Of a DNA stretch of 50,733 bases, positions 23,920 to 46,725 are shown piece by piece. Under the pieces are notes generated by a model. That model searched no databases. It was not told the DNA's origin and was given only the letters and a program-made list of their open reading frames with translations. The stretch comes from Lachnospiraceae bacterium (lineage in GTDB: Bacteria > Bacillota > Clostridia > Lachnospirales > Lachnospiraceae), in contig JAILBQ010000072.1 of the NCBI GenBank assembly GCA_024680815.1, positions 1-50,733 of the forward strand, given 5' to 3'. The translations under genes and the position numbers were made by a program. The number at the start of each line of letters is the position of its first letter. Position 1 is the first letter of the stretch.

Positions 23920-24983
23920 ACAGACAGGAGCTTTTTAATCTTTCAATTGACCCTCCGGATGAGGAAACGGCATTCAGGGTTCGTGCGCGATGGGATGCTG
24001 TTGCAAAACCTTTGGATGCCCTCGGACGCTTTGAGGAAATGACAATTCGTATCGGCGCGATGTTACGGGACGAGGAGCTGGATCTCTCAAAAAAGACCGT
24101 GGTGACTTTCTGTGCCGATAACGGAATTGTTGCCGAGGGGGTGACTCAGACAGGGCAGAGCGTTACAGCCGCCGTGGCAGAGAGCATTGCGGCGGGAACG
24201 GCCTCGGTTTCCCGGATGGCGGAAACCGTCGGAGCAGGGGTGCTTCCGGTGGATATAGGCATAAATTCCCGGGATAGCGTTCCGGGAGTACTTAACCGCA
24301 GGGTAAGAGCGGGAACGGAAAACTTTCTTGAAACTCCGGCCATGACGGAGGAGGAATGTCTCCGGGCCATTGAATGCGGGATGGAAATTGCGGAGCAGCT
24401 GAAGGTAGAGGGAGTCTCGATAATTGCCTCCGGAGAAATGGGAATTGGCAATACCACCACGGGAAGCGCAGTTGCTGCCGCGCTCCTCGGGCTTTCAGCA
24501 TCCCTGGTCACTGGAAAGGGCGCGGGTTTAAGCGAAAGCGGTTTCAAGCGGAAAATAGAGGTTATAGATCAGGCTGTCGGGAAATATGGTTTACATAAAA
24601 CAGATCCCCTGGCCATACTCTATACTGTCGGGGGGCTGGACATTGCGGGAATGACGGGACTTTTCATAGGCGGAGCGCTTTTTCACCTGCCGGTGGTCGT
24701 GGACGGTATGATAAGCGCCGCGGCTGCTCTTCTGGCCGAGCGGCTTGTGCCCGGGGTAAAAGAATATATGCTTGCCTCCCACATGGGGAAGGAACGCGCA
24801 TGCAGGCTTTTGCTCTCTGAATTGTCTCTTGTACCTGTTATAGATGCCGATCTTGCTCTCGGGGAAGGCACCGGGGCGGTAATGCTTTTCTCCCTCTTGG
24901 ATCAGGTGCTTTCGGTCTATCACGGCAACACCACTTTTTCAAAGCTTTTCCTGAAGCCCTATGAAAGGTTTGAAGGGACATGA
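23916..24983 (+). CDS. cobT: Nicotinate-nucleotide:dimethylbenzimidazole phosphoribosyltransferase
   Basis: CobT activates the lower-ligand base as its alpha-ribotide. The 355-residue protein carries KPLDALGRFE near the N-terminus, the GEMGIGNTTTGSA substrate loop, and catalytic Glu317 in LALGEGTGAVML, the same numbering as the Salmonella enzyme. A copy of the dispersed 11-mer (24588-24598) encodes GLHK just before DPLAILYTVGGLDIAG. ATGA overlaps join it to cbiP and cobU. No dimethylbenzimidazole-synthesis gene is in the window. Confidence 0.96.
   Translation: MNRQELFNLSIDPPDEETAFRVRARWDAVAKPLDALGRFEEMTIRIGAMLRDEELDLSKKTVVTFCADNGIVAEGVTQTGQSVTAAVAESIAAGTASVSRMAETVGAGVLPVDIGINSRDSVPGVLNRRVRAGTENFLETPAMTEEECLRAIECGMEIAEQLKVEGVSIIASGEMGIGNTTTGSAVAAALLGLSASLVTGKGAGLSESGFKRKIEVIDQAVGKYGLHKTDPLAILYTVGGLDIAGMTGLFIGGALFHLPVVVDGMISAAAALLAERLVPGVKEYMLASHMGKERACRLLLSELSLVPVIDADLALGEGTGAVMLFSLLDQVLSVYHGNTTFSKLFLKPYERFEGT
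24588..24598 (+). repeat. XerD-arm-like 11-mer, GGTTTACATAA, in cobT
   Basis: Exact copy, read as Gly-Leu-His in the cobT frame. First of the dense cluster that extends to 45,357. Confidence 0.6.
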
Positions 24984-25567
24984 TGCTTTTATATATAGGA
25001 GGGGCCGCAAGCGGAAAATCGGAGCTTGCCGAGAAGCGGGCAATAGAGCTCTCGGAGAATAATCATGCTGAAGGGCTGCCGCTTTACTATATTGCCACCA
25101 TGCAAAGAACGGACGCCGAGAGCGAAGAGAGGATAAAAAGACATCGTGAAAGGCGGAAAGGCACGGCTTTTCAGACAATCGAAGCGCCGGCGGAATTATC
25201 TGAAGCGGTGAGAAGGGAAGGTGTGCCGGAAAATTCGATTGTGCTTCTGGAGTGTCTTTCCAATCTGGCGGCCAATTCCTTTTTCGCTCCGGAAAATGAA
25301 AAAAGCCGCACTGAGAATCCGGAGGCTTTTCGCGGGCAGCTCTCGGACAGGCTTTTTTCCGAACTTACGGAGCTTGAGGAGAGGGTCGGATATTTGATCA
25401 TTGTTTCCAACAATCTTTTCTGTTCCTCGGAAAAGTATGATAAGGATACTTCGGATTATCTGCGCTTTCTTTCCGTTCTTAACATACGTCTGGCGGAACG
25501 CGCGGAGGAAGTCACGGAGGCTGTCGCCGGAACCGGCGTGCCCCTTAAAAGGTGTAAGGTGATGTAA
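24980..25567 (+). CDS. cobU: Adenosylcobinamide kinase/guanylyltransferase family protein
   Basis: CobU phosphorylates adenosylcobinamide and then attaches GMP. The 195-residue protein has the Walker A GGAASGKS (7-14), the YIATMQRTDAE segment, the RIKRHRERR guanylyl-acceptor region and LLECLSNLAAN. The usual NEVG-x-GIVP motif is replaced by NNLFCSSEKYDKD, which is odd; a second short CobU homologue downstream (26354-26680) retains that motif. It overlaps cobT by four bases and abuts cobS. Confidence 0.85.
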   Translation: MMLLYIGGAASGKSELAEKRAIELSENNHAEGLPLYYIATMQRTDAESEERIKRHRERRKGTAFQTIEAPAELSEAVRREGVPENSIVLLECLSNLAANSFFAPENEKSRTENPEAFRGQLSDRLFSELTELEERVGYLIIVSNNLFCSSEKYDKDTSDYLRFLSVLNIRLAERAEEVTEAVAGTGVPLKRCKVM

Positions 25568-26335: not shown

Positions 26336-26353
26336 GAGCAGGCGGTTGACGGC

Positions 26354-27648: not shown

Positions 27649-27662
27649 GGAAGGAAACGCGA

Positions 27663-28775
27663 ATGAAGAGATATATACACGGCGGGGAGATCAGAGAGAA
27701 TCGGGTCAGACTTGATTTTTCAGTGAACCTTAATCCTCTGGGGACGCCGGAAACGGTGCGGGAGGCGGTGAAAGATTGCGCAGGACGGCTTCAGGAATAT
27801 CCTGATCCGGCTTACCGGAAATTAAGAGAGGCTCTGGCAGGCTTTTTCGGCATCGGGAAGGATGAAATAATCTGCGGAAACGGGGCCTCGGAGCTGATTA
27901 TGGCCTCGGTGGCGGCAATTAGACCTGAGAGGGTTCTGCTTACGGTGCCTGATTTCTACGGCTATGAACGCGCAGCTGCGGCCCTGGGGACGGAGACGGA
28001 ATTTCTGCCTTTTTGGAAGGATGAGGCGGAGACGGAATCGGAGGGTGCGGAATCGGAGAGTGCGGTCGAGTTATGTAAACTAATCGAAGGGGCCGGATCA
28101 TCTTCCGGGGAAGGTAAAAGAACGCTTGTGATGCTCTCCAATCCGAATAATCCCACGGGCCGTTTTATTATAAAACGGGGGATGACAGACGTTATCGAAA
28201 AAGCGGCGGAACGGGGATTCTTCTTCCTTCTTGATGAAAGCTTTCTGCCTTTTGTGAAGGGAGGAGAGAGGGAAAGTCTTATTTCGGAAACAGGGCGCTT
28301 TCCGGGGCTTATGGTTTTAAGATCGCTTACAAAACAATTCGCGATGCCCGGAGTCAGGCTCGGGGCAATCGTTACGGGTTCATGCGGGCTGCGTGAGAAA
28401 ATCGCGGAGTTTTTGCCGGAGTGGAACGTATCCATACCGGCAGAGGCGGCAGGAATGGCGGCTGTCAATGAATCAAATTATGTCAACCAGACTCCGGTTT
28501 TTCTCGCTGAATCGCGGGAGATGCTGAAGGCCGGAATTGAAGCACTTGGCCGGAAAACCGGCAGGCTTACGGTCTTTCCTTCCGCTGTCAATTATCTTCT
28601 TATAAAAAGCTCTCTTCCGCTGTACAGCAGGCTGCTGGAAAAGGGAATACTGATACGGGACTGCGAAAATTTCCGAGGGCTTGGGCGCGGATATTACCGG
28701 ATTGCGGTGAAATCCGGCGAGGAAAACGAAGAGCTCCTGGCGGCTCTGGGCGACTTATTTTCCGGAAATCGCTAG
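27663..28775 (+). CDS. cobD: Threonine-phosphate decarboxylase-like PLP enzyme
   Basis: This enzyme type makes (R)-1-amino-2-propanol phosphate from threonine phosphate for CbiB. ATG 27663 follows AGGAAGG and gives 370 residues; the open frame upstream lies inside cbiB. The N-terminus HGGEIRENRVRLDFSVNLNPLG is the CobD/CobC signature, and PLP Lys224 lies in SLTKQFAMPGVRLG. Residues around 122-150 form an acidic, duplicated ESEGA/ESESA insert ending in ELCKL, encoded by a near-copy of the 11-mer. HisC-type aminotransferases share the fold, so context decides the call. Confidence 0.88.
   Translation: MKRYIHGGEIRENRVRLDFSVNLNPLGTPETVREAVKDCAGRLQEYPDPAYRKLREALAGFFGIGKDEIICGNGASELIMASVAAIRPERVLLTVPDFYGYERAAAALGTETEFLPFWKDEAETESEGAESESAVELCKLIEGAGSSSGEGKRTLVMLSNPNNPTGRFIIKRGMTDVIEKAAERGFFFLLDESFLPFVKGGERESLISETGRFPGLMVLRSLTKQFAMPGVRLGAIVTGSCGLREKIAEFLPEWNVSIPAEAAGMAAVNESNYVNQTPVFLAESREMLKAGIEALGRKTGRLTVFPSAVNYLLIKSSLPLYSRLLEKGILIRDCENFRGLGRGYYRIAVKSGEENEELLAALGDLFSGNR
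28071..28081 (-). repeat. XerD-arm-like variant, + strand TTATGTAAACT
   Basis: One base from the 11-mer consensus and identical to the XerD arm of the B. subtilis dif site. It encodes Leu-Cys-Lys in a probable surface insert of cobD. Confidence 0.5.
28488..28498 (-). repeat. XerD-arm-like 11-mer, + strand TTATGTCAACC
   Basis: Exact copy, read as Tyr-Val-Asn in the cobD frame. Confidence 0.6.
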
Positions 28776-28793
28776 TAATGCGGAGGGACGGAA

Positions 28794-29444
28794 ATGGATC
28801 CGATATTATGTAAACCAAAGGAAATCGAAAACAAAAGCTTTGAGATTATAAAAGAGGAGCTGGATAAGCGTAAAATCTTTCTGCCGGAGGAAGAGGAAGC
28901 TGTGATAACGAGAGTTATCCACGCAACGGCGGATTTTGATTATGCGGAAACTCTCTGCTTTTCGTCCGGAGCGATGGAAGAAGCAAAAGAACTGCTCCGC
29001 TCGGGTGCGAAAATCGTGACGGATACAAATATGGCTTTATCCGGTATAAACCGTCAGGCTCTTTTTGACCTCGGAATAGAGGCCTTTTGTTTTATGGCTG
29101 AGGAAGAGGTGGAGCGCGAGGCTTTAATGCGCGGCGTAACAAGGGCAGCAGTCTCGATGGAGTTCGCGGCAAAGACGATTTCGGGACCGGTCATGTTTGT
29201 TGTCGGGAATGCGCCAACAGCGCTGATTACTCTCCACGGCCTTTGGAAGAAGGGCGCATACAGTCCGGCCTTTGTGGTAGCGGTTCCAGTTGGGTTTGTC
29301 AATGTGGAGCTTTCCAAGGAGCTTATTCTGGATTCGTCTTTTCCCTACGTTGTTGCCCGGGGAAGGAAGGGAGGCAGCAGCGTCGCTGTGGCTATCGTAA
29401 ACGCAATTCTTTATCAATGTGTTGCAGGGGAAAAGGACAGCTGA
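28794..29444 (+). CDS. cbiC: Cobalt-precorrin-8 methylmutase
   Basis: CbiC moves the C11 methyl to C12, giving cobyrinic acid. The 216-residue protein has catalytic His43 in RVIHATADFDYAE, the same number as in characterised CbiC/CobH, and the VGNAPTALITL and PVGFVNVELSKE segments. Its N-terminus (MDPILCKPKEIE) contains an exact 11-mer copy at 28806-28816, read as Leu-Cys-Lys-Pro in place of the usual start of the family. Stop TGA lies just before cbiD. Confidence 0.95.
   Translation: MDPILCKPKEIENKSFEIIKEELDKRKIFLPEEEEAVITRVIHATADFDYAETLCFSSGAMEEAKELLRSGAKIVTDTNMALSGINRQALFDLGIEAFCFMAEEEVEREALMRGVTRAAVSMEFAAKTISGPVMFVVGNAPTALITLHGLWKKGAYSPAFVVAVPVGFVNVELSKELILDSSFPYVVARGRKGGSSVAVAIVNAILYQCVAGEKDS
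28806..28816 (-). repeat. XerD-arm-like 11-mer, + strand TTATGTAAACC
   Basis: Exact copy at codons 5-8 of cbiC. Confidence 0.6.
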
Positions 29445-29449
29445 TTTCG

Positions 29450-30655
29450 ATGGAGAAAAGACAGGAGTTAAAAAACGGTTTTACCACGGGAAGCTGCGCT
29501 GCAGCCGCGGCAGGGGCTGCGGCTGTTTTTCTGCTGGAGGGCAGAAAGCCTGAATATATTGATATTGAGACGCCCAGAGGGGATATCTTTCACGCAGTGA
29601 TTGAGGAATTTGTCCCTTTGGGCAAGAGCAGAGCGCGCTCCGGAGTAAGGAAGGACGGCGGAGATGATCCGGACGTGACCACGGGGCTGCTGATTGAAGC
29701 TGAAGTGGAATTGGTTGACATAAATCAAGAAAAACAGGTTGACATAAATCGAACGGATCAGAATGATTCGGTTGACATAACAATGAATACTTCTTCCACA
29801 GAATGCCGCATCTTCATTGACGGCGGAAAAGGAGTCGGGAGGGTGACAAAGCCCGGACTTGACAGAAGTGTGGGAGAAGCCGCCATCAATTCCGTTCCGA
29901 GAAGGATGATAGAGGATGAGGTAAGACGGGTTTGCGAGCGAAACGGCTACCGTGGCGGTGTTAAAATCCTGATTAGTGTTCCGGGAGGAGAGGAAATCGC
30001 CAAAAAAACCTTTAATCCGCGGCTTGGTGTTGTGGGCGGAATTTCAATCCTCGGCAGGAGCGGAGTGGAGGAGCCTATGAGTACCCGGGCCATAATTGAT
30101 ACCATAAAGGCCGAGCTCTCCGTCCACAGAGCCGTCGGAGAGGATTATGTCGCCGTTTCACCCGGAAACTACGGGAGGGAACTGATAAACACCCTTTTCG
30201 GTTATGATATTGAAAAAAGCGTAAAGTGTTCCAATTTCATCGGAGATATGCTGGAGCTTGCAGGGGATCTCGGTTTTAAGGGAGTGCTGCTTACGGGTCA
30301 CATAGGAAAGCTTGTGAAGCTCTCCGGCGGGATCACAAATACCCATTCGATGAACGCCGACTGCAGAATGGAGCTAATGGCGGCAGCGGCCTTAAGGGCC
30401 GGAGCAGGGGCGGAAACAGCCAGGGAAATACTGGACTGTGTTTCGACCGAGGAAGCGCTGGGCATCCTTGGACGCTCCGGCCTTTTAAAAGACAGCATGG
30501 AGGAGCTGATGGGGCGGATAATGAATACACTTAAACGTCTGGTCCGGGATGAATTCAGGGTAGAATGTATGCTGCTTTCAAATGAATACGGAGTTCTGGC
30601 GGAAAGTGAGGGTGCCGGAGAGATGCTGAAAATTATTATGGGGAGTGTGCAGTAA
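29450..30655 (+). CDS. cbiD: Cobalt-precorrin-5B C1-methyltransferase with repeat-derived insert
   Basis: CbiD methylates C1 in anaerobic corrin synthesis. ATG 29450 gives 401 residues starting KNGFTTGSCAAAA, the family signature; longer upstream frames run through cbiC. Other hallmarks are IDGGKGVGRVTKPGLDRSVGEAAIN and GHIGKLVKLSGG. Between VTTGLLIEAEVEL and CRIFIDGGKG lies an insert of about 29 residues that ordinary CbiD seems to lack. It contains three VDI triplets (89-91, 97-99, 108-110), each encoded by an exact GGTTGACATAA. The stop overlaps the cbiF start (TAATG). Confidence 0.94.
   Translation: MEKRQELKNGFTTGSCAAAAAGAAAVFLLEGRKPEYIDIETPRGDIFHAVIEEFVPLGKSRARSGVRKDGGDDPDVTTGLLIEAEVELVDINQEKQVDINRTDQNDSVDITMNTSSTECRIFIDGGKGVGRVTKPGLDRSVGEAAINSVPRRMIEDEVRRVCERNGYRGGVKILISVPGGEEIAKKTFNPRLGVVGGISILGRSGVEEPMSTRAIIDTIKAELSVHRAVGEDYVAVSPGNYGRELINTLFGYDIEKSVKCSNFIGDMLELAGDLGFKGVLLTGHIGKLVKLSGGITNTHSMNADCRMELMAAAALRAGAGAETAREILDCVSTEEALGILGRSGLLKDSMEELMGRIMNTLKRLVRDEFRVECMLLSNEYGVLAESEGAGEMLKIIMGSVQ
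29713..29780 (+). repeat. Three in-frame GGTTGACATAA copies inside cbiD
   Basis: Exact copies at 29713-29723, 29737-29747 and 29770-29780 (spacings 24 and 33). All use the G variant and all are read as Val-Asp-Ile. They form most of the extra loop in CbiD. Confidence 0.75.
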
Positions 30656-34566: not shown

Positions 34567-34658
34567 CTGAAAACACAATCTTAATCTGATACAATTGATG
34601 TATAAGAGGGTTATCCTCATTTAAACTCAAATGAAATGAAATATAAGGTTAACATAAT
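34567..34658 (+). promoter_or_regulatory. Gap before cbiA: possible internal promoter and 11-mer at the start codon
   Basis: CTGAAA (34567-34572), a 17-base spacer and TACAAT (34590-34595) make a weak promoter candidate. A small GAGG/CCTC hairpin follows. An exact GGTTAACATAA (34647-34657) ends one base before the cbiA ATG and occupies the place of a Shine-Dalgarno, leaving only ATAAGG as a ribosome site. Confidence 0.45.
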
Positions 34659-37215: not shown

Positions 37216-38400
37216 ATGGGAAACGAAATAATCTGTTCTCTTTCGGAAATGGAGGAGGACAGCAGGGATAAACAGATAGTTGATCTTCGCGCCGGGGCGG
37301 AAAGCCGAAGGGTGATATACCCCGGCGCGATTCATATTTGTAGGGAAGATTTTTCCGACCGTTTCGCAGAATTATCCCCCGAAAAACCCATATATCTTCT
37401 GGGGCGCTCCACCCGCTCCGGTGCTGAAGCGGCACTTTTCCTCAGGGAGAAGGGCATTGAGAGCCGCTGTGTTGAAGGAGGCTTTCAAGCTGTTGTGTTA
37501 AAACGGCTTCAGATCCTGCTTCAGGACAAATCCGCTTCGGAGGAATATTTAAAAAACGCGGAGAGAAGCATAATCAAGCGCTATCGGGATAAGCTGTGGT
37601 CCGGATTTGTGAAGGCCATAGGGGAATACCGTCTTATTGAGGACGGCGACAGAATAGCGGTCTGCATTTCCGGGGGGAAGGACTCAACCCTTTTGGCAAA
37701 GCTCTTTTCCGAGCTGTATGCCCACGGAAAACGGAATTTTGAAGTGCGCTACCTCGTGATGAATCCGGGCTACAGCAGGGTTAATGCCGGTATTATAGAG
37801 AGCAATTTAAGGCTTCTTGACATTCCGGCCGAGGTCTTTGATTCCGAAATATTTAAAATCACGCTGAAGGCGGGAGAGTCTCCCTGCTATCTCTGCGCCA
37901 GGATGCGGCGCGGTGCCCTTTATTCAAAGGCGAGAGAGCTTGGCTGCAATAAAATTGCCCTGGGACATCACTACGACGATGTTATAGAGACCATCCTTAT
38001 GGGGATGCTCTACGGCGGACAGATACAGACCATGATGCCCAAGCTCCACAGCACGAACTTTCCGGGAATGGAGCTGATTCGTCCGATGTATCTTATAAGG
38101 GAAGCGGATATAGTGCGCTGGAGGGACGGAAATGACCTCCACTTTATAGAATGCGCCTGCTCCCTTACTGAAATGGCGGAAGGCGCTCCGGCCGGTGTGA
38201 CGGAATCGAAGCGCGCGGAGGTGAAAGCGCTTATTGCCTCTCTGACGGAAAAAAATCCCTATGCGGAAGCGAATATATTCAGGAGCGTGGAAAATGTCCA
38301 TCTGGATACCCTGATAGCCTGGAAAAGCAAAGGGGTAAGGCATCATTTTCTGGATGACTATGAGTGTAAAGAGGAGAAGAAATGGCAGTCCGGCTCGTGA
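37216..38400 (+). CDS. Inactive-looking rhodanese domain fused to a TtcA-like PP-loop ATPase
   Basis: Residues 1-95 form a rhodanese-like domain, with the family VDLRAGAESRRVIYPGAIHI start. The catalytic-Cys loop reads LLGRSTRSG, so the usual Cys is Gly and the domain should not transfer sulfur itself. The rest resembles TtcA, which thiolates tRNA cytidine. It has PP-loop SGGKDST (152-158), Fe-S-type cysteines 224 and 227 in PCYLCARMRRGAL, ALGHHYDD, and a later ECAC. The Shine-Dalgarno is poor. The gene overlaps corC by 19 bases. Confidence 0.86.
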   Translation: MGNEIICSLSEMEEDSRDKQIVDLRAGAESRRVIYPGAIHICREDFSDRFAELSPEKPIYLLGRSTRSGAEAALFLREKGIESRCVEGGFQAVVLKRLQILLQDKSASEEYLKNAERSIIKRYRDKLWSGFVKAIGEYRLIEDGDRIAVCISGGKDSTLLAKLFSELYAHGKRNFEVRYLVMNPGYSRVNAGIIESNLRLLDIPAEVFDSEIFKITLKAGESPCYLCARMRRGALYSKARELGCNKIALGHHYDDVIETILMGMLYGGQIQTMMPKLHSTNFPGMELIRPMYLIREADIVRWRDGNDLHFIECACSLTEMAEGAPAGVTESKRAEVKALIASLTEKNPYAEANIFRSVENVHLDTLIAWKSKGVRHHFLDDYECKEEKKWQSGS

Positions 38401-39638
38401 TATTGATTGTTTTACTGTTATTATCGGCCTTTTTTTCCTGCGCCGAGACGGCTCTCACAGGAGTCAACCGGATTCGGGTACGTTCCCGGGCGGAGCAGGG
38501 GGATAAAAAGGCTGTGATTTTGATGAAGATTCTGGAGAATAAGGCTAAGATGCTCTCCTGTATTCTGGTCTGCAACAACGTCGTAAATATCGCCGCCTCC
38601 GCCATCGCAACCATGCTTGCCATGAAGATTTCCATGCCGGTCGGGATTATGACGGGTATTGTAACAGGTGTTGTCTTAATCTTCGGCGAAGTCACTCCCA
38701 AGCATATAGCCACCGTTTATTCCGAGCCCGTTTCTCTGGAAATTGCGGGCTTCATACAGGCGCTTATGTTTTTGCTCACTCCTGTTATAGCCTTTATCAA
38801 CCTGATTTCCAGGGGGCTTCTCCTGCTTTTCCGTATTGATCCCGGAGGAGAGGGGGAGGCCATGACGGAAAGCGAGTTAAGGACAATTGTGGATGTAAGC
38901 CATGAGGACGGAGTCATCGAGGGGGCGGAACGGAAGATAATCAATAATGTTTTTGACTTCGGGGACAGCATGGCGAAGGATATTATGATTCCGCGTATCG
39001 ATGTTACGCAGATCGACATCAATGCCGACTACGACACGATCGTGGAGATATTCCGGCTGGAGCGCTATACAAGGCTCCCGGTCTACGCGGAGGATACGGA
39101 TAATATTGTGGGTATACTGAACATGAAAGACTTCTTTGTTGCCGACAGGGAGAATTTCAAGGTCAGGGATATGATGCGGGAGGGTTACTATACCTATGAA
39201 CGCAAGAAAACCAGCGAACTGATGATGGACATGCGGCGGGAGAACGCTACCGTCGCAATTGTAATAAACGAATACGGGGCCTCTGTGGGAATTATCACCA
39301 TGGAGGATCTGCTGGAAGAGATTGTCGGGGAAATCAGGGACGAATACGACGAGGACGAGGTGGATATCATCCAGAAGACAGGAGAAAATGAGTATCTTGT
39401 ACAGGCCCAGATCAGGCTGGATGATCTTAACGACAACCTCGGGACGGATTTCGATTCCGAGGAATACGATTCTCTGGGAGGCTTTATAATCGAACGGCTG
39501 GATCACCTCCCCCATTCCGGAGAGAAGGTAACGGCGGAGAGCGGAGCGACGCTGGAAGTGGTGTCCGTTTTAAAAAACCGTATCGCACAGGTCCGGCTTA
39601 TTCTTCCGGAGAAGGTCGTAAGGGATGAAAGCGGTTAA
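38382..39638 (+). CDS. CNNM/CorC-family membrane protein with CBS pair
   Basis: Members of this family are Mg2+ or Co2+ efflux-related transporters, formerly called hemolysins. The 418-residue protein has an N-terminal CNNM domain with several membrane segments and SAFFSCAETALTG, then two CBS domains (starting around DIMIPRIDVTQID), and a C-terminal CorC/HlyC domain with DSLGGFIIERLDHLPHSGE. A GAGGAG site precedes ATG 38382. Its TAA stop lies inside an 11-mer copy (GGT TAA CAT AA), and three more copies follow in the gap. Confidence 0.92.
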   Translation: MAVRLVILIVLLLLSAFFSCAETALTGVNRIRVRSRAEQGDKKAVILMKILENKAKMLSCILVCNNVVNIAASAIATMLAMKISMPVGIMTGIVTGVVLIFGEVTPKHIATVYSEPVSLEIAGFIQALMFLLTPVIAFINLISRGLLLLFRIDPGGEGEAMTESELRTIVDVSHEDGVIEGAERKIINNVFDFGDSMAKDIMIPRIDVTQIDINADYDTIVEIFRLERYTRLPVYAEDTDNIVGILNMKDFFVADRENFKVRDMMREGYYTYERKKTSELMMDMRRENATVAIVINEYGASVGIITMEDLLEEIVGEIRDEYDEDEVDIIQKTGENEYLVQAQIRLDDLNDNLGTDFDSEEYDSLGGFIIERLDHLPHSGEKVTAESGATLEVVSVLKNRIAQVRLILPEKVVRDESG

Positions 39639-39770
39639 CATAATGTCGAAAACTGAATCACCGGGGTCAGGTTAACATAACTCAATAAACAAAAATGTCA
39701 AAAAGGTTTACATAAATCTAAAAACCTGAAGAGTGCTAAACAAGGTTGACGTAAAAATATTATGTGAAGT
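39633..39770 (+). repeat. Spaced array of XerD-arm-like 11-mers between corC and the LUD gene
   Basis: Copies at 39633-39643 (GGTTAACATAA), 39670-39680 (GGTTAACATAA), 39705-39715 (GGTTTACATAA) and 39744-39754 (GGTTGACGTAA, one mismatch), spaced 37, 35 and 39 bases and all in the same orientation. Five bases after the last, an inverted partial copy TTATGTGAAGT (39760-39770) gives a dif-like pair of arms. The sequences between copies are unrelated and A-rich. No promoter or terminator is obvious in this 190-base gap. Confidence 0.75.
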
Positions 39771-39829
39771 TTTTTGGCCGGAAACCGAAAAAACATTTGC
39801 CGAAGATCGTCGGCAGAAAGGAGAACGAA

Positions 39830-40462
39830 ATGCAGGAAGTCAGAAAAAAAAGGAACGAGCTTCTCGCGCAAACGGTAATTAAGGGGCTTAAGTCCAGAAA
39901 TATGGAGGGATATTATGCCTCCGGCCGGGAAGAGGCCAGGGAGATCGCCCTGTCACTGATTCCGGAGGGAGCGAGTGTCACCAACGGAGGAACGTTTTCG
40001 GCGGAGGAAATCGGCCTTGTGGATGCGGTCAAAGCCGGTAATTACCGCTATATTGACAGAAAGGACTCAAAAGACAGATATACCGCCGAGAGAGAGGCCT
40101 ATTCCTGCGACTGTTTCCTTTCAAGCGTCAACGCGATGACCAACGACGGGATCCTCATTAATATCGACGGAAATGCCAACAGGGTTTCGGCCATAGCTTA
40201 CGGCCCGAAAAAGGTGATTTTTATCGTCGGAATGAATAAGGTCGCGGGGGATGATATCGACAGCGCTTTAAAAAGGGCCAGAAACGAGGCCGCAACCATA
40301 AACGCCCAGCGTTTCGGTCTTGATACGCCCTGTACGAAGACGGGAGCCTGTATGGACTGCAAGTCACCTGACAATATCTGCTGTCAGTTTCTGATTACCC
40401 GCTATTCCAAACATCCGGGGCGGATACATGTTATTCTTGTAAACGAGGAGCTGGGATTTTAG
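39830..40462 (+). CDS. LUD-domain protein (LutC/YkgG-like)
   Basis: ATG 39830 is chosen because AAAGGAG ends six bases before it; a GTG at 39764 in the same frame overlaps the repeat array and would add a basic 22-residue extension. The 210-residue protein is an LUD (DUF162) domain: ASVTNGGTFSAEEIGL, then DCFLSSVNAMTNDGILINIDGNANR, VIFIVGMNKVAGD and a C-terminal cysteine cluster (PCTKTGACMDCKSPDNICC). LutC helps lactate oxidation in Bacillus, but this stand-alone clostridial form is of unknown function and no LutA/LutB is here. Confidence 0.87.
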   Translation: MQEVRKKRNELLAQTVIKGLKSRNMEGYYASGREEAREIALSLIPEGASVTNGGTFSAEEIGLVDAVKAGNYRYIDRKDSKDRYTAEREAYSCDCFLSSVNAMTNDGILINIDGNANRVSAIAYGPKKVIFIVGMNKVAGDDIDSALKRARNEAATINAQRFGLDTPCTKTGACMDCKSPDNICCQFLITRYSKHPGRIHVILVNEELGF

Positions 40463-40570: not shown

Positions 40571-40717
40571 ATGAAGCATATCAGAACATTGAATACCAGA
40601 GATTATAAAAAGAGCACAAAGACGGGCGGCTGCGGCGAGTGCCAGACCTCCTGCCAGTCAGCCTGCAAGACCTCCTGCACTGTAGGTAACCAGACCTGTG
40701 AAAATAAGAAAAAATAA
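40571..40717 (+). CDS. scfA: SCIFF ribosomally made peptide precursor
   Basis: A 48-residue peptide with six cysteines (residues 21, 24, 28, 32, 36, 43), beginning KHIRTLNTRDYKKS. This is the SCIFF (six cysteines in forty-five) family, nearly universal in Clostridia. Its cysteines are cross-linked to neighbouring residues (often Thr) as thioethers by a radical-SAM maturase, which is encoded next. AAGGAG lies six bases before the ATG. The physiological role of the mature peptide is unknown. Confidence 0.96.
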   Translation: MKHIRTLNTRDYKKSTKTGGCGECQTSCQSACKTSCTVGNQTCENKKK

Positions 40718-40744
40718 ATAATATCATCTGATACCGAATGGTCG

Positions 40745-40797: not shown

Positions 40798-42189
40798 ATG
40801 ATTCACAGATATAAAAACAACGGTTACTCAATCGTACTTGATGTGTTTTCGGGGGCGGTACACGTGGTGGACAATGTGACCTATGCCCTGATTCCGATTC
40901 TCGAGGAAAAGCGGGAAGCTTCCCTGGATGAGTTATGTAAACTTATAAAAGAGGCTGAGCCCGGCAATGATTTTTCCAGAGAGGAGATAGCGGAGGCAGC
41001 GGAGGAAATCCGTGAACTCGCAAGGAACAAGACTCTGTATACGGAGGACAGCTACGAAAACTATGTGGCGGACTTCATGGAAAAGCGTCTGGAGAAGCCC
41101 GTCGTCAAGGCCTTGTGTCTTCATGTGGCTCATGACTGCAACCTTCGCTGCAAATACTGTTTTGCGTCTGAAGGAGAATATCACGGAAAACGTGCACTTA
41201 TGAGCTTTGAGACCGGAAAGCGCGCCCTGGACTTTCTGGTTGAAAATTCGGGAAACCGGCGGAATCTGGAGGTGGATTTCTTCGGGGGCGAGCCCCTTAT
41301 GAATTTTGAAGTTGTAAAGGCTTTGGTGGAATACGGACGCTCGGTTGAAAAGGAGAAAAATAAGAATTTTCGGTTCACCCTGACCACGAACGGCGTGCTG
41401 CTGGATGATGAGGTTTTAGATTATGTAAACCGAGAGATGGGAAATCTCGTGCTTTCCATAGACGGGCGGAAGGAGGTTCACGACCGTATGCGTCCCATGC
41501 GCGGAGGCGGTCCTTCCCATGACAGGATCCTTCCGAAGCTGTTAAAGGCTGCCGGAAGCAGGCAGCAGAAAAACTATTATGTCCGCGGAACCTTTACGCA
41601 CTATAATACGGATTTTGCTGCGGACGTGCTCTATCTTAACGACCTGGGCTTTGAGCAGATTTCGGTGGAGCCGGTGGTGGCGCCGCCTTCGGAGGATTAT
41701 GCCCTGAAGGAGAGCGACCTGCCTGTGCTTATGGAGCAGTACGATATTCTGGCCCGTGAGATACTGAAAAGGAGAGCCGGGGGACATTATGTTAACTTCT
41801 TTCATTTCATGATAGATCTTGAAGGAGGGCCATGCGTGGCAAAGCGTCTTTCAGGCTGCGGCGCCGGAGGAGAATACCTTGCGGTCACGCCCTGGGGCGA
41901 CCTTTACCCCTGCCATCAGTTTGTGGGAGAGGAGAGGTTCCTTATGGGAAATGTTTTTGACGGGGTCATGAACAGGGAGCTTGCGGAGAAGTTTGCCCGT
42001 GTCAACGTCTATTCAAAGCCGGAATGCGGGAGCTGCTTTGCACGGTTTTACTGCTCGGGCGGATGCGCTGCCAATTCATGGCATTTTGCCGGAGATATCA
42101 ACGGGAACTACAAAATAGGCTGTGAACTGGAGCGGAAACGGGTGGAATGCGCCATTATGATTAAGGCTGCGGAGGCGGAGAAGGAATAG
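40798..42189 (+). CDS. scfB: SCIFF radical-SAM/SPASM maturase
   Basis: ScfB installs thioether links in the SCIFF peptide. ATG 40798 (after GAAAGAG) gives 463 residues beginning MIHRYKNNGYSIVLDVFSGAVHVVD, the normal family start; the frame upstream runs through the terminator hairpin. The N-terminal peptide-recognition domain is followed by the radical-SAM CNLRCKYC (Cys114, 118, 121), and the C-terminal SPASM region has CGSCFARFYCSGGCAANS and a final CELE cysteine for two auxiliary clusters. The gene contains one exact and two near 11-mer copies. Confidence 0.96.
   Translation: MIHRYKNNGYSIVLDVFSGAVHVVDNVTYALIPILEEKREASLDELCKLIKEAEPGNDFSREEIAEAAEEIRELARNKTLYTEDSYENYVADFMEKRLEKPVVKALCLHVAHDCNLRCKYCFASEGEYHGKRALMSFETGKRALDFLVENSGNRRNLEVDFFGGEPLMNFEVVKALVEYGRSVEKEKNKNFRFTLTTNGVLLDDEVLDYVNREMGNLVLSIDGRKEVHDRMRPMRGGGPSHDRILPKLLKAAGSRQQKNYYVRGTFTHYNTDFAADVLYLNDLGFEQISVEPVVAPPSEDYALKESDLPVLMEQYDILAREILKRRAGGHYVNFFHFMIDLEGGPCVAKRLSGCGAGGEYLAVTPWGDLYPCHQFVGEERFLMGNVFDGVMNRELAEKFARVNVYSKPECGSCFARFYCSGGCAANSWHFAGDINGNYKIGCELERKRVECAIMIKAAEAEKE
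40933..40943 (-). repeat. XerD-arm-like variant, + strand TTATGTAAACT
   Basis: Near-copy in scfB, read Leu-Cys-Lys; identical to the B. subtilis dif XerD arm. Confidence 0.45.
41421..41431 (-). repeat. XerD-arm-like 11-mer, + strand TTATGTAAACC
   Basis: Exact copy in scfB, read Asp-Tyr-Val-Asn-Arg. Confidence 0.6.
41787..41797 (-). repeat. XerD-arm-like variant, + strand TTATGTTAACT
   Basis: Near-copy (one mismatch) in scfB, read Tyr-Val-Asn. Confidence 0.4.
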
Positions 42190-43219
42190 CTTTGGAAGAA
42201 AAATGGGTTATCCGCAGGGTAGGCGGAGATTACGAGGAGCTTGGAAGGAGATACGGCGTTTCTCCCGTTATCGCGAGGATAATGCGGAACCGGGGGATTA
42301 TGGAGGATACAGAGGCTGAACTTTTCCTGAGGGGGTCTGAGGCAGCCCTTTCGGACGGTAAGCTTCTTCCGGACTGTATTCGTCTGGTGGAGCTTTTGTC
42401 GAAAGCGATAGACGAGGGCCGGCATATACGTGTGATCGGAGACTATGACGTGGACGGAGTGTGCGCCACGGCCATATTTTTCGAAGCGATTAAAACCGCC
42501 GGAGGGAAGGCGGATACCAGAATTCCGCACAGAATACGTGACGGCTACGGCCTGAACGAGCGGATTATCAGGGAAGCGGCAGAAGATAAGGTAGAGGTGA
42601 TATTAACCTGTGATAACGGGATTTCCGCCGCGGGAGAAATTAAGCTTGCCCATGAGCTCGGAATGCAGGTGCTCATTACGGATCACCACTCCGTTCCCAG
42701 GGAGGGAGTTCCGGAGGCAGAGGCAGTGGTGAATCCGCAGAGGATAGATAGCGAATGTTCTTTTAAAGAACTATGCGGGGCGGCCGTGGCCTGGAAGGTG
42801 GCGCAGGCTTTGTTTGAAAAGCGCGGAATTCCGGAAAAAAAACATCCGGAATTTTTTGAACTGGCTGCGTTGGCAACTGTAACTGATGTGATGCCACTTA
42901 AAGGAGAGAACCGAATTCTGGTCCGGGAGGGCTTAAAGAAACTTTAGGATACGGAACACATCGGGCTGAAAGCTCTTATGGAGGTTACCGGGCTTTCCGG
43001 AAAGACTCTTTCCTCTTACCATCTGGGCTTCATCCTGGGACCCTGCATCAACGCTGCGGGAAGGATAGACAGCGCGGACGAGGCGCTTATGCTTTTACTG
43101 GAAAAAGATGAGGAGGATGCCCGCGAGCGTGCGGTTCACCTCAGAGATCTGAACGAAAGCCGGAAGGCAATGACGGAAAAGGCCCTGGAGGCTGCGACAG
43201 AGCTGGCCGGACGGGAGGA

Positions 43220-43230
43220 TTATGTTAACC
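43220..43230 (-). repeat. XerD-arm-like 11-mer, + strand TTATGTTAACC
   Basis: Exact copy in recJ, read Asp-Tyr-Val-Asn-Gln-Lys. Confidence 0.6.
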
Positions 43231-43585
43231 AAAAGGTTCTTGTTCTCTTTGTTCCCGACTGTCACGAAAGTGTGGCAGGCATCGTTGCGGGAAAGGTTCG
43301 GGAGCGGTTTAACCGCCCGGCTTTTATACTCTGCCGTGCCCATACCCCAGACGGGCGGGACTGCCTGAAAGGCTCGGGGCGTTCCATCGAGGCCTACAAC
43401 ATGTTTGAAGGAATGAGCCTCGTTGGCGATGTGTTCTTACAGTTCGGAGGCCATTCCCAGGCGGCAGGCCTTTCGATTCTTCCGGAGAGGCTCGAGGAAT
43501 TCCGACAGCGTATAAACGAAGGCTGTTCACTGACGGAAGAAGAGCTTCAGAGTGTGGTTAAGATAGATATGGAGCTCCCGTTTTA

Positions 43586-43596
43586 TTATGTTAACT
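43586..43596 (-). repeat. XerD-arm-like variant, + strand TTATGTTAACT
   Basis: Near-copy (one mismatch) in recJ, read Tyr-Val-Asn. Confidence 0.4.
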
Positions 43597-43792
43597 TAAA
43601 TCTGGCCCGTGAACTGGAGCTGCTGGAGCCTGTGGGTACAGGAAATGAGGCACCGCTTTTTGCTGCCCGGAATATTACCGTTTCGGATATGTGGGTCTGC
43701 GGAAAGAGCCGGAATGTTCTGAAGTGCCGTTTAAGTGACGGAAAGGAAAGAAGGGACGGGGTATATTTCGGAGAAGCTGAGGTTTTTATGGA

Positions 43793-43803
43793 TTATGTAA
43801 ACC
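43793..43803 (-). repeat. XerD-arm-like 11-mer, + strand TTATGTAAACC
   Basis: Exact copy in recJ, again read Asp-Tyr-Val-Asn-Gln-Lys. Confidence 0.6.
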
Positions 43804-43878
43804 AAAAAGCAGGTGAGCCGCTTTCCATGGTTTACAGTATTTCCGTTAACGAATACCGCGGGGAAATGAGCCCCCAGA

Positions 43879-44139
43879 TCACGATCCGCCATTTCCGCTG
43901 ATATCGTTTTTCTTTTCCTTATAGGAATAAGGTTCGTCATAAAGTTTCTTTCCGCGGCGGATATTTATCATCATTAAGAGGAGATGGATCATCACCGGAA
44001 TAATGATGGTTAAAAGAACAGAAAGCAGAAAGAGCCTCATGGCCCATGGCGAACCGATGACGGCGAAGACAAGCGAGGCGATATAGAGCGCGGCCAGAAG
44101 TACTACCCCCGCGAGGGCGAGAATTCTTTTTATGTCCAT
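43879..44139 (-). CDS. Small two-helix membrane protein on the minus strand
   Basis: The only minus-strand gene. From ATG at 44139 it encodes 86 residues: MDIKRILALAGVVLLAALY begins the first membrane helix, a second helix (LFLLSVLLTIIIPVMIHLLLM) follows, then a basic stop-transfer stretch and a charged tail. It resembles small conserved membrane proteins of Clostridia of unknown function. Its 3' end overlaps the recJ 3' end by 23 bases. A GTG six codons upstream is an alternative start, but it would sit within the predicted -10 region. Confidence 0.72.
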   Translation of the reverse strand: MDIKRILALAGVVLLAALYIASLVFAVIGSPWAMRLFLLSVLLTIIIPVMIHLLLMMINIRRGKKLYDEPYSYKEKKNDISGNGGS

Positions 44140-44154
44140 GGGGCAAGTATAACA
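44139..44154 (-). promoter_or_regulatory. Extended -10 promoter giving a leaderless start
   Basis: On the minus strand TGT-TATACT (about 44154-44146) is an extended -10, and the ATG follows six bases later, so transcription would begin at or next to the start codon. No Shine-Dalgarno is present. The -35 (TTTCGG) is poor. Confidence 0.5.
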
Positions 44155-44191
44155 CACCGCGAAAGACTCCGAAAGTCCCTGTTGCGGTTCG

Positions 44192-44220
44192 TTGACATCA
44201 AAGAAAAAGACAGATATAAT
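44192..44220 (+). promoter_or_regulatory. Consensus promoter for the SEC-C gene and thrS
   Basis: Perfect TTGACA (44192-44197), a 17-base spacer and perfect TATAAT (44215-44220), 32 bases before the SEC-C gene. It is divergent from the minus-strand promoter at 44146. Confidence 0.92.
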
Positions 44221-44252
44221 TCAACGAAGATTGATGGAGGTATAAATAAACT

Positions 44253-44756
44253 ATGGCACTATTGAAACAATGGAGAGACAAGGCATATTCCCAGACAGAG
44301 GACAAGGGAAAGCTGCAGAAGCTCTGGCAGGCTTATTTCCTGAAAGAAAAGGAGATCTACCGGCAGCTTTTGAAAAATCCGGATGAGGAAGTTAAGGGGA
44401 CGGTTAAGGAGCTCGCTGAGAAATACGAAGTTGATATTATGACTATGACGGGCTTTCTCGACGGGATAAACGATTCTCTTGTGACCGGAAACGATATCGA
44501 GAATATGGAAGAAGACACAGAGGTGTCTCTGAAATTTGATAAGATCAGTCTTTATAAAAACATGGTCGGGGCAAAGGCGGACTGGCTCTATAACCTGGAG
44601 GAGTGGGATGATATTTTCACGCCCGAAGAGAAGGAGCAGTACTATAAAGAGCAGAAGCGTTCCACGACCTATGTACGTGAAGGCAGGAAAATCGGCCGAA
44701 ACGACCCCTGTCCCTGCGGGAGCGGAAAGAAGTACAAGCAGTGCTGTGGGAAATGA
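44253..44756 (+). CDS. SEC-C zinc-motif protein
   Basis: The 167-residue protein has an acidic, helical N-terminal part and ends in a SecA-C-terminal-type zinc motif, [20 protein letters not shown] (Cys-x-Cys-x8-Cys-Cys). Stand-alone SEC-C proteins are common in Clostridia; in SecA the motif binds SecB and ribosomes, but the role here is unknown. It is transcribed from a near-perfect promoter and lies 37 bases before thrS. An exact 11-mer copy starts right after its stop codon (44758-44768). Confidence 0.85.
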
Positions 44757-44757
44757 G

Positions 44758-44768
44758 TTATGTCAACC
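44758..44768 (-). repeat. XerD-arm-like 11-mer, + strand TTATGTCAACC
   Basis: Exact copy in the 37-base gap between the SEC-C gene and thrS. Confidence 0.6.
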
Positions 44769-44793
44769 AATTCGAAGGAGCGTAAAAACCATT

Positions 44794-46725
44794 ATGAAAA
44801 TCACTTTGAAGGATGGTTCCGTTAAAGAGTATGATGTGCCTAAGACGGTACTGGAAATAGCGGAGGATATAAGTCCCGGACTTGCGAGGGCTTCCTGCGC
44901 GGGAGAGGTGAACGGGGAGAGAGTGGATCTGCGTACGCCCCTTGAAGAGGACGCGGCTTTAAATATTCTGACCGCCGATACTCCGGGAGGACTTGCCACA
45001 ATCCGCCATACCGCATCCCATATTCTGGCGCAGGCCTTAAAACGGCTCTATCCTTCCATACAGCTGGCAATAGGTCCTTCCGTGGATGACGGCTTTTATT
45101 ATGACGTGGATTCCGAGACCCCTATAACGACCGAGGATTTCGAGAAGATCGAAGCCGAGATGAAGAAGATCGTGAAGGAGGATCTGAAGCTCGAGCGCTA
45201 TGAGCTGCCCAGGGACGAAGCTATAGAATTCTTCAGGGAAAAGGGCGAGAGCTATAAGGTTCAGCTTATAGAGGATCTTCCGGAGGACGCGGCCATCAGC
45301 CTTTACCGGCAGGGGGAATTTACCGATCTGTGTGCCGGGCCGCACATTATGTCAACCAAAGGAGTTAAGGCCTTTAAGCTTATGAAGCTGGCCGGTGCCT
45401 ATTGGCGGGGCAATGAAAAGAATAAGATGCTGACCCGGATTTACGGGACGGCTTTCGCAAAGCAGTCCGAGCTGGACGCCTATCTTTACATGCTGGAGGA
45501 GGCAAAGAAGAGGGATCACAGAAAGATCGGCAAAGAGATGGAGCTCTTTATGTTCTCGGACGAGGGGCCTGGCTTTCCTTTCTTCCTCCCGAACGGTATG
45601 GTGCTTCGCAACGAGCTCATGAAATACTGGCGCGAAGTGCATACAAGAAACGGCTATCAGGAAATTGAAACGCCTGTTATGCTTAATCAGCATCTCTGGG
45701 TCACCAGCGGGCACTGGGATCATTATCAGGAAAACATGTACACCTCGGAGATAGATGAGCAGCTTTTCTGCATAAAGCCGATGAACTGCCCGGGCTCTAT
45801 TCTTGTTTACCAGAACCGGCCCAGGTCATATAAGGAGCTGCCCCTTCGTTATGCGGAGGTGGGACTGGTGCACCGTCATGAAAAGAGCGGCGCCCTCCAT
45901 GGCCTGATGAGGGTTCGGGCTTTCCATCAGGACGATGCTCATGAGTTTATCACCATGGAGCAGGTTGGGGATGAGGTGGAACATATTGTCCGCCTTATCG
46001 ATGAGGTATATAAACAGCTGGAATTCGATTATCATATCGAGCTCTCCACGATGCCCGAGGATCACATGGGCTCCGATGAGGACTGGGAGAAGGCCACAAA
46101 CGGTCTTAAGGATGCCCTGGAGCGGATGGGGCTTCCCTATGAAATCAACGAGGGCGACGGGGCCTTTTACGGGCCGAAAATCGATTTCCATGTGGAGGAC
46201 TGCCTCGGCAGAACCTGGCAGTGCGGTACCTGTCAGCTGGATTTCCAGCTTCCGCAGAATTTTGATCTCCATTATGTGGGCGCTGACGGCGAGGAGCATA
46301 TGCCGGTTATGATACACAGAGTGGTGTTCGGTTCGGTGGAGCGGTTTATCGGCGTCATGATCGAAAACTACACGGGGAAATTCCCGACCTGGCTGGCTCC
46401 GGTTCAGGCACGCGTCCTTCCCATTTCCGATAAATTCATGGACTATGCTTATGAAGTGGATGCAAAGCTTAAGGAGGCCGGAATCAGGTCGGAAGTGGAT
46501 GAGCGGGCGGAGAAGATCGGCTTTAAGATAAGAGAAGCCAGACTGGCCAGGATTCCCTACATGCTCGTTGTCGGTGCGAAGGAAGCCGAAAACGGCAGTG
46601 TATCCGTGCGCTCAAGGTTTGCCGGAGACGAGGGGGCAAAAGAGCTTTCCTCCTTTATTGCCGATATCCGGCGTGAAATCGACTCCCGGATTCGTCGGGA
46701 AGAGACGGTTCAGGACGATAAATAA
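44794..46725 (+). CDS. thrS: Threonyl-tRNA synthetase
   Basis: ThrRS charges tRNA-Thr. ATG 44794 gives 643 residues, normal for the family; the open frame further upstream overlaps the SEC-C gene and is rejected. Order: TGS domain (1-60), editing domain with TASHILAQALKRLY, class II core with MNCPGSILVYQ, RYAEVGLVHRHEKSGALHGLMRVR and the HRVVFGSVERFIGVMIE motif 3, then anticodon-binding domain. In the editing-domain end, GPHIMSTKGVKAFKL contains an 11-mer copy where most homologues have a PST motif. No T-box leader is seen. Confidence 0.97.
   Translation: MKITLKDGSVKEYDVPKTVLEIAEDISPGLARASCAGEVNGERVDLRTPLEEDAALNILTADTPGGLATIRHTASHILAQALKRLYPSIQLAIGPSVDDGFYYDVDSETPITTEDFEKIEAEMKKIVKEDLKLERYELPRDEAIEFFREKGESYKVQLIEDLPEDAAISLYRQGEFTDLCAGPHIMSTKGVKAFKLMKLAGAYWRGNEKNKMLTRIYGTAFAKQSELDAYLYMLEEAKKRDHRKIGKEMELFMFSDEGPGFPFFLPNGMVLRNELMKYWREVHTRNGYQEIETPVMLNQHLWVTSGHWDHYQENMYTSEIDEQLFCIKPMNCPGSILVYQNRPRSYKELPLRYAEVGLVHRHEKSGALHGLMRVRAFHQDDAHEFITMEQVGDEVEHIVRLIDEVYKQLEFDYHIELSTMPEDHMGSDEDWEKATNGLKDALERMGLPYEINEGDGAFYGPKIDFHVEDCLGRTWQCGTCQLDFQLPQNFDLHYVGADGEEHMPVMIHRVVFGSVERFIGVMIENYTGKFPTWLAPVQARVLPISDKFMDYAYEVDAKLKEAGIRSEVDERAEKIGFKIREARLARIPYMLVVGAKEAENGSVSVRSRFAGDEGAKELSSFIADIRREIDSRIRREETVQDDK
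45347..45357 (-). repeat. XerD-arm-like 11-mer, + strand TTATGTCAACC, in thrS
   Basis: Exact copy, read Ile-Met-Ser-Thr in thrS, a third reading frame of the motif. Last exact copy of the cluster. Confidence 0.6.

Follow-up and report, generated by a model that had tools for sequence, protein, structure and literature searches.

A dispersed 11-mer of a Lachnospiraceae genus as a candidate XerD half-site for binding rather than recombination

The window analysed here, a stretch of 50,733 nucleotides from a Lachnospiraceae genome, is rich in the 11-mer GGTTDACATAA (reverse TTATGTHAACC), and the question is which protein reads this word. An earlier note had matched it to the XerD arm of dif and had taken the cluster for a terminus-proximal field of XerD sites. 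We recovered all 17 exact copies (D is A in 4, G in 7, T in 6 and C in 0), 16 of them between 24.6 and 45.4 kb as reported; dinucleotide shuffles of the window contain 0.03 copies on average and 1 at most. When one mismatch is allowed there are 24 matches, namely the exact 17, six more (28071, 34023, 39744, 40933, 41787 and 43586) and the match in rny at 20336, which agrees with the earlier count. The B. subtilis-type arm AGTTTACATAA is present where it had been placed, at 28071, 34023 and 40933. The remaining positions are also correct, with one blemish: the site given as 28488 actually spans 28478-28488. The sites are as follows.

4423-4433, plus strand: half-site GGTTGACATAA, overlapping the end of ORF 3739-4428
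24588-24598, plus strand: half-site GGTTTACATAA, within cobT
28071-28081, minus strand: half-site AGTTTACATAA (A-type), within a CobD-like aminotransferase gene
28478-28488, minus strand: half-site GGTTGACATAA, within the same CobD-like aminotransferase gene
28806-28816, minus strand: half-site GGTTTACATAA, at the start of the precorrin-8X methylmutase gene (28794-29444)
29713-29780, plus strand: three half-sites GGTTGACATAA in an array (29713, 29737, 29770), in frame within a variable loop of cbiD
34023-34033, minus strand: half-site AGTTTACATAA, within a fused precorrin-6A reductase/CbiE/CbiT ORF
34647-34657, plus strand: half-site GGTTAACATAA, immediately upstream of cobB (34659)
35372-35382, plus strand: half-site GGTTTACATAA, within cobB
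39633-39754, plus strand: array of three exact half-sites (39633, 39670, 39705) and a degenerate one (39744); the first shares bases with the end of a CNNM/GldE-type gene (38382-39638), the other three lie in the spacer preceding ORF 39764-40462
40933-40943, minus strand: half-site AGTTTACATAA, within scfB, at variable residues
41421-41431, minus strand: half-site GGTTTACATAA, within scfB; Y-V-N here, F-A-N in 13 of 14 relatives
41787-41797, minus strand: half-site AGTTAACATAA, within scfB; Y-V-N here, [FY]-I-N in 13 of 14 relatives
43220-43230, minus strand: half-site GGTTAACATAA, within recJ
43586-43596, minus strand: half-site AGTTAACATAA, within recJ
43793-43803, minus strand: half-site GGTTTACATAA, within recJ
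44758-44768, minus strand: half-site GGTTGACATAA, just past ORF 44253-44756, ahead of the thrS-coding part
45347-45357, minus strand: half-site GGTTGACATAA, within thrS

The local cluster is real in addition to the motif, because the genome-wide density predicts only 2.5 sites in the window for the 17 found (a 6.7-fold share; Poisson P = 2e-9). The whole genome (2.86 Mb) contains 143 copies, about one per 20 kb and clustered, and 0 copies of the reversed control pattern. A check in related genomes showed that the enrichment is genus-wide, the word exceeding the control in 24 of 24 genomes; in the family it is patchy (23 of 298 genomes enriched). The motif is razor-sharp and behaves in an all-or-none manner: it reads [GA]GTT[AGT]ACATAA, and other single-letter neighbours occur at background. 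Among the variants counted, C was found once at position 5 and G never at position 6. In scfB the half-sites are lineage-specific and go along with amino-acid changes in the alignment to 14 relatives.

Sites are enriched in non-coding DNA (27% of them), and 56 of 77 lie inside genes, on both strands. They show no strand bias along the replichores (38 leading, 37 lagging, 2 undetermined); a polar signal of the FtsK/SpoIIIE KOPS or SRS type was rejected on these numbers. In the window, in G211 (contig C12) and in G013 (contig C3), the dense portions span a cobalamin gene cluster. Together with the non-coding share this would suit operators of a transcription regulator, for example of the cobalamin genes. 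However, most sites are intragenic, other dense regions carry fab genes and rlmB, and the cobalamin loci of the enriched genomes L032, L034 and L043 have no sites, while that of L044 has two A-type ones. A cobalamin regulon was rejected on these four genomes, and we regard operators in general as extremely unlikely.

The identification of the word as a XerD-type arm held up. The free letter H of TTATGTHAAC is the one that varies among the XerD arms of other bacteria, being A in B. subtilis and T in E. coli. The sequence TTATGTNAAC, which characterizes the XerD arm of XerD-dependent sites, is matched by [GA]GTT[AGT]ACATAA. The three bases that adjoin the word toward what in dif is the central region are A or T in 68, 80 and 64% of 74 sites. 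Both the motif class TTATGT[A/T/C]AA, which is that of XerD arms, and this A/T-rich inner side support XerD as the reader. The XerD arm of F. alni has C at the free letter, according to the portion of PMC3025954 consulted.

The claim that the XerC arm is absent apparently holds for the window, in which the mixed-arm dif pattern CTATAA-N6-TTATGTHAACY has no match with one mismatch (a single XerC-arm form was searched); no inverted second copy lies within 24 bp of any window site. The same mixed-arm pattern was rejected as dif in the genus, where it occurs with one mismatch at 30 places in 21 of 31 genomes, none of which is a common dif. One form recurs in five of these genomes; it is homologous sequence, because its flanks are conserved as well, and is perhaps coding. 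The match in the genome under study (C60:2720) sits in a transporter-like ORF.

A full-length XerD is encoded in the genome (355 bits, cut-off 329.6), and its catalytic R, K, HxxR, H and Y are present, as judged by eye in an alignment to E. coli XerD. XerD is to be expected in nearly all bacteria of this family. The XerD-profile search also returned a XerS-like protein (139 bits) and four matches below 42 bits. XerC was not seen in this search of an assembly that is 92.9% complete, and XerD is therefore without a known partner; XerC may truly be absent from the lineage. The available part of PMC5357621 describes RipX as able to bind both arms of Bsdif, from which it follows that Xer specificity is not strict.

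The 11-mer is not an arm of the host's dif. The dif of the genus is a palindrome, TGTTCGYATAA-N6-TTATRCGAACA, sited at the GC-skew flip, and its arms read TTCG[TC]ATAA. A dif has the plan 11-6-11 and is present as a single copy at the skew flip; the 11-mer has 143 copies beside this separate palindrome. Dif-type arms are not dispersed: the 415 kb used for the motif counts contain 6, four of them inside two dif palindromes. A comparison of TAA-TTA candidates did not reveal a dif common to G133, G099 and G285. The gene of the XerS-like recombinase is on contig C45 (15331-16260), and its 358-aa open frame is scored best by the XerS model, with 224.5 bits, below the curated cut-off of 267. The dif lies 16.5 kb from this gene; in G009 it lies about 130 bp upstream of the corresponding gene, and a difSL-like sequence precedes the gene in L204, L219 and L224. 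The XerS-like enzyme presumably acts at the dif of the genus.

A field of XerD sites around the terminus is not supported, because the lone copies are not gathered at dif. The 34 kb of dif contig in the genome under study hold a single lone site; summed over ten contigs of the genus that bear dif, 1 was seen where 10.5 were expected. The Poisson P of this depletion is 3e-4, but 0.14 after merging sites within 5 kb, a conservative test in that the merging ratio was derived from site-rich contigs. Hence the depletion loses its significance when clustering is taken into account, and there is no sign of the predicted enrichment. Two more dif contigs, G363 C5 and G366 C3 (80 kb each), have no lone site; they were left out of the count since their genome totals are not known. 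In G013, the 466-kb dif contig has 0 lone sites and the rpoB-bearing contig 11 of 38 sites. Contig C109 of the genome under study (5 sites) belongs to the block of genes found at the end of this rpoB contig. A GC-skew flip beside the C109 sites was ruled out, as the skew goes back to positive. In three closed relatives (G133, G099 and G285) scfB and the terminus are separated by 0.42 to 2.3 Mb. The terminus field does have on its side the XerD-type word, contigs C111 and C56 (5 and 2 listed sites), whose genes are found in G133 and G099 at about 66 and 59 kb from the terminus sites, and scfB in G343, 25 kb from a double site; on balance it is very unlikely. SMC unloading would be expected at the terminus, and that lone sites are not gathered there also speaks against XerD as their reader.

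A second form of the word does sit there. This double site consists of two mirror-image copies, RGTTDACATAA-N5-TTATGTHAACY, with a spacer of 5 bp as opposed to the 6 bp of dif. It occurs in 59 of 298 family genomes and is at or near the terminus in all eight genomes where placement succeeded; seven of twelve dif contigs of the genus are without it. Whatever its function, it offers a candidate marker, at the level of sequence, of where replication ends in these 59 sampled genomes. XerD by itself does not explain the patchiness of enrichment (23 of 298) and double site (59 of 298), an observation that counts against the XerD reading. The 5-bp spacer, the seven dif contigs lacking the double site and the loose specificity of RipX weigh in the same direction.

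Inverted pairs of the word can form hairpins and, with the exact word being enriched in the genus, on both strands and commoner in non-coding DNA, this would fit DNA-uptake words that serve natural competence. Such words, however, typically occur at a much higher density than one per 20 kb and are expected to tolerate near-matches. The 11-mer is sparse, clustered and at background in its near-matches, and the inverted pairs are few and sited at the terminus; an uptake signal is extremely improbable. The double site bears also on the idea that the XerS-like recombinase binds the 11-mer as well as dif. The dif arms and the 11-mer have GTT..NATAA in common, and at 7 of the 32 loci listed, as well as in L204, the double site has a xerS-like gene no more than 1.5 kb away. 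Yet the arms of the double site are unchanged in genera (L204, L219 and, by gene, G133) where a markedly different sequence, resembling difSL, stands ahead of the xerS-like gene, which argues against this enzyme as the binder. Moreover, the C-G of the dif arms is almost never seen in the 11-mer. We consider this dual binding unlikely.

The half-sites could instead be bound by another protein of the chromosome-organising or nucleoid kind, comparable to Noc, SlmA or MatP, whose word happens to be XerD-like. Dispersed, non-polar sites enriched in non-coding DNA suit any such protein, an accessory protein would account for the patchy distribution in the family, and lone sites are scarce near dif. 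Against this, the word falls into the XerD arm class down to its free letter, and the doubled version of it lies at the terminus, in some cases next to xerS-like genes. Such a protein seems to us rather unlikely.

We favor, at slightly better than even odds (about 52%), the reading that GGTTDACATAA is a XerD half-site for binding, not recombination, in a lineage where a XerS-like enzyme probably acts at dif. XerD as the binder is deduced from sequence. Besides the arm class, this reading draws on the sharpness of the motif, the full-length XerD, the position of the double site and the amino-acid changes at the scfB sites. According to this model, the tyrosine recombinase XerD would bind the half-sites without recombining them; monomers would occupy the single half-sites and short arrays scattered along the chromosome, and pairs the mirror-image double site of the terminus. 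Dimers would probably be resolved by the XerS-like single recombinase at the homopalindromic dif. Once bound, XerD may halt SMC complexes or unload them, an analogy taken from B. subtilis, in which XerD unloads SMC at XerD-dependent sites (Karaboja et al. 2021, as cited in the portions consulted of PMC12322038, PMC8357415 and PMC13220808). A wider proposal can be offered only tentatively: in part of the Lachnospiraceae, XerD may have been freed from dimer resolution, which the XerS-like enzyme and its own dif took over while XerC was lost, and have turned into a dedicated chromosome-organising reader of the terminus double site and, in some genera, of tens to more than 100 exact half-sites in clusters along the chromosome, renewed by selection even at a cost in protein sequence. 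If XerD does read these words where another enzyme resolves dimers, its proposed SMC role would be separated from the recombinase role in nature. It could then be tested whether the number and spacing of half-sites determine the place at which SMC comes off the chromosome, and for what reason a genus spreads such sites beyond the terminus.

A literature search on XerD binding sites together with SMC gave no match, and one on XerD and the dif site of Lachnospiraceae gave Lactobacillus work only. MatP/matS, Noc and SlmA sites are dispersed short words read by chromosome-organising proteins; the 11-mer would resemble them in this respect and differs from them in sequence. The XerS/difSL system of streptococci and lactococci, as far as it is described in the part of PMC5357621 consulted, resembles ours in that XerS is the best model for the 358-aa frame, in the dif close upstream of the xerS-like gene of G009 and in the difSL-reminiscent sequence of other genera. 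It differs in that the frame scores below the XerS cut-off (224.5 versus 267) and that the dif is built as 11-6-11 and lacks an 11-bp central region. With dif/XerCD the 11-mer shares the class of arm sequence and the A/T-rich inner side; unlike it, no partner arm was found at 6 bp, and the genus has a separate dif. The B. subtilis sites reportedly have XerD-type arms without an XerC arm and are dispersed, some of them clustered. The sites described here likewise have a XerD-type 11-bp arm, apparently no XerC arm, and a dispersed, partly clustered distribution. They differ from those of B. subtilis in their number of about 143 genome-wide, in not being gathered at dif, in dif arms of a different type and in the mirror-image double form at the terminus.

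The 17 exact copies of the 11-mer GGTTDACATAA (reverse TTATGTHAACC) that the earlier note had counted in the window were all recovered, against a mean of 0.03 after dinucleotide shuffling, and the one-mismatch matches were likewise the six it had counted plus the one in rny. The genome from which the window comes (G000, with the window as its contig C123; 2.86 Mb in 145 contigs, 92.9% complete) holds 143 copies, 67 on one strand and 76 on the other; a whole-genome search with the pattern read backwards returned none. The window has 17 of the 143 copies, against 2.5 expected for a stretch of its length (P 2e-9), and this excess indicates local clustering on top of a genome-wide word. Some copies are arranged in arrays with a spacing of 22 to 63 bp.

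All 24 same-genus genomes searched were above their own control (5 to 96 copies vs 0 to 8). For 16 genomes from other families of the order the range was 1 to 14 copies vs 1 to 25 in the control. In a family sample of 298 genomes spanning 280 genera, 23 genomes, G000 counted, were enriched as read from the table, i.e. they had 30 or more copies and no fewer than three times as many as the control. We take G000 as probably a member of the Lachnospiraceae, given the breadth of this family sample and the 23 named relatives of a window protein, most of which are MAGs of rumen Lachnospiraceae and of other Clostridia, with Treponema accounting for five. Four of 23 genomes reached via named loci were clearly enriched.

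Copies of the 11-mer in clearly enriched genomes reached via named loci
RUG14112 (locus L032): 64 copies, control 2
RUG14126 (locus L034): 32 copies, control 0
RGIG8044 (locus L044): 60 copies, control 3
RGIG6897 (locus L043): 28 copies, control 3

Properties of the word were read from 415 kb of the G000 genome, comprising 18 contigs or contig parts (the window, 15 chosen for holding sites and two for dif-like palindromes) with 77 copies that have G at position 1 (G-type). Single-letter neighbours of the 11-mer occur at background level, except those with A at position 1 (A-type; 18 vs 0.3 expected). The flanks of 74 sites show a weak preference only: G rarely precedes the word (3), and the three bases on its 3' side are A/T in 68, 80 and 64%. 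By a rough ORF call, 21 of the 77 copies are non-coding, while non-coding DNA makes up 5.0% of the bases (P 1e-10). The coding copies divide into 24 sense and 32 antisense, and neither orientation prevails with respect to replication (38 leading, 37 lagging, 2 undetermined).

The window gene scfB carries three sites, at 40933, 41421 and 41787; none was found within scfB of 14 relatives (13 from the genus and G211). At 41421 the window encodes Y-V-N, compared with F-A-N in 13 of the 14 relatives and F-V-N in one; at 41787 it encodes Y-V-N, compared with [FY]-I-N in 13 and G-F-N in one. The site at 40933 falls on residues of a variable stretch. In cbiD, three in-frame copies lie within a loop. 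Most of the 21 homologues shown have a short loop here; in L031 and L043 it is nearly as long, without the word, and L049 does not cover it. These alignments indicate that new sites arise, in some cases at a price in protein sequence, and from the scfB residue changes and the cbiD loop copies the DNA word itself seems to be under selection. Relatives do hold some sites in common at matching positions, which counts against general turnover; examples are an A-type site present in five genus genomes and two site pairs common to the genus members G013 and G366.

Directly before the scfB maturase gene is a small Cys-rich open frame (40572-40718), which we take to resemble a SCIFF ranthipeptide precursor, with scfB as its maturase gene. 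The window gene recJ (42192-43901) is broken by an in-frame TAG (42945-42947), with both halves in the same frame; this may reflect real decay, recoding or an assembly error.

The likeness of the word to the XerD arm of dif, on which the earlier note had built, is supported by sequence: the word equals the XerD arms of B. subtilis (TTATGTAAACT) and E. coli (TTATGTTAAAT) as the earlier note gives them. It also equals the XerD arm of F. alni, TTATGTCAAGT, as given in an excerpt of PMC3025954. The dif of the genus is the palindrome TGTTCGYATAA-N6-TTATRCGAACA, which 21 of 31 genus genomes carry, among them 12 of the 14 good ones, with up to two mismatches allowed within the inner 26 letters. Each of these 21 has one such place, except G000 (2), G011 (2) and G366 (3). 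GC skew changes from plus to minus at dif in G013, G363, G366, G012, G016, G019, G001, G009, G024 and on contig C45 of G000, one side being just a few kb long in G000, G001, G009 and G024; in G011 and G020 dif is too close to the contig end for a skew reading. Contig C45 has genes in common with the terminus blocks of G013, G363, G366, G099 and G133, and with that of G285 by three genes. The dif arms have C-G at the place where the dispersed word has D-A, and hence the genus's own dif does not have the word as an arm. The second dif-like palindrome of G000 (contig C68, 32590-32615) has a different centre and lies on a contig other than the terminus block; it could be a dif-integrated element or a relic.

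A mirror-image double site, RGTTDACATAA-N5-TTATGTHAACY with a 5-bp spacer, occurs with up to one mismatch in 59 of the 298 family genomes, and its reversed control in none of them. It is commoner in the half-site-enriched genomes (10 of 23 vs 49 of 275; P 0.006). Three single-contig genomes that carry it were followed, G133 (one-mismatch form), G099 and G285, and in each the skew flip is no more than about 10 kb away. G099 has a second copy at a distance of 22 kb, G285 one at 2.3 kb. The double site was absent from the seven other genus dif contigs read.

Distance of the double site from dif
G000: 5 kb
G363: 6 kb
G013: 70 bp and 43 kb
G366: 70 bp and 33 kb
G009: 0.4 and 1.4 kb

Within 1.5 kb to either side, 20 of 30 double-site loci carry a homologue of some protein from the G000 dif contig, compared with 2 of 59 control loci (scfB loci and loci of lone sites, i.e. 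11-mers outside any double site). With a wider terminus gene set, drawn from that contig and from G013, G099, G133 and G285, the last three of which also contribute one locus each, the counts were 26 of 30 vs 5 of 59. The five bases outside the 11-mers are palindromic with differing letters (90 of 135 complementary; 27 sites). As L212, L214, L232 and L198 show, the double site can sit at the centre of an inverted repeat that is much longer, hairpin- or terminator-like; at L212 all ten outer bases shown are complementary, and the outer letters vary between genomes.

The terminus-proximal field of XerD sites proposed in the earlier note was not borne out. Ten genus dif-bearing contigs (eight fetched whole, C45 and 166 kb of G013 contig C1) hold 1 lone G-type site vs 10.5 expected, a depletion that is insignificant once clustering is allowed for (P 0.14); a three-fold enrichment would mean about 30 lone sites. 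In G013, none of the 38 listed sites is a lone one on the 466-kb dif contig, and 11 are on the 320-kb rpoB contig. Gene matches place G000 contig C109 (5 sites) with the block at the end of this rpoB contig. Evidence pointing the opposite way comes from G000 contigs C111 and C56, which carry genes located 66 and 59 kb from the terminus sites of G133 and G099. The gene scfB is 0.42 Mb from the terminus in G133, 2.3 Mb in G099 and 1.3 Mb in G285, but in G343 a double site lies 25 kb from it, and in G271 the distance is 0.39 Mb.

The XerD of G000 scores above the curated cut-off, and alignment to E. coli XerD shows, by eye, the catalytic residues. Besides XerD, a search of G000 with a XerD profile gave one strong Xer-class match, a 358-aa frame on the dif contig with XerS as best model, at a score below its cut-off; no XerC was detected with this XerD profile in the 92.9% complete assembly. 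In G009 about 130 bp separate the xerS-like gene from dif. At L204, L219 and L224, which represent three further genera, the XerS-like gene has a conserved difSL-like sequence (CTATACGACAAA ... TTTTTC) in front of it, and this suggests dimer resolution of the XerS/difSL type in the family. The double site keeps its letters in genera with this arrangement; since it is unchanged while the sequence before the xerS-like gene is difSL-like, XerD is a likelier reader of it than the XerS-like enzyme. Upstream of xerD itself (L060, G000 contig C16) is a one-mismatch word, TGTTAACATAA, which is probably there by chance because words with T at position 1 show no enrichment elsewhere.

The dispersed words are best read as predicted XerD-binding half-sites, which would act without recombination. 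Excerpts of PMC5357621 describe XerS as a single recombinase with a link to difSL and state that both Bsdif arms are bound by RipX. In B. subtilis, according to passages of PMC12322038, PMC13220808 and PMC8357415, XerD unloads SMC near ter, and by analogy the half-sites might serve SMC unloading here. Two things are new: a double site located at the terminus, and the separation of dif arms from XerD-type arms.
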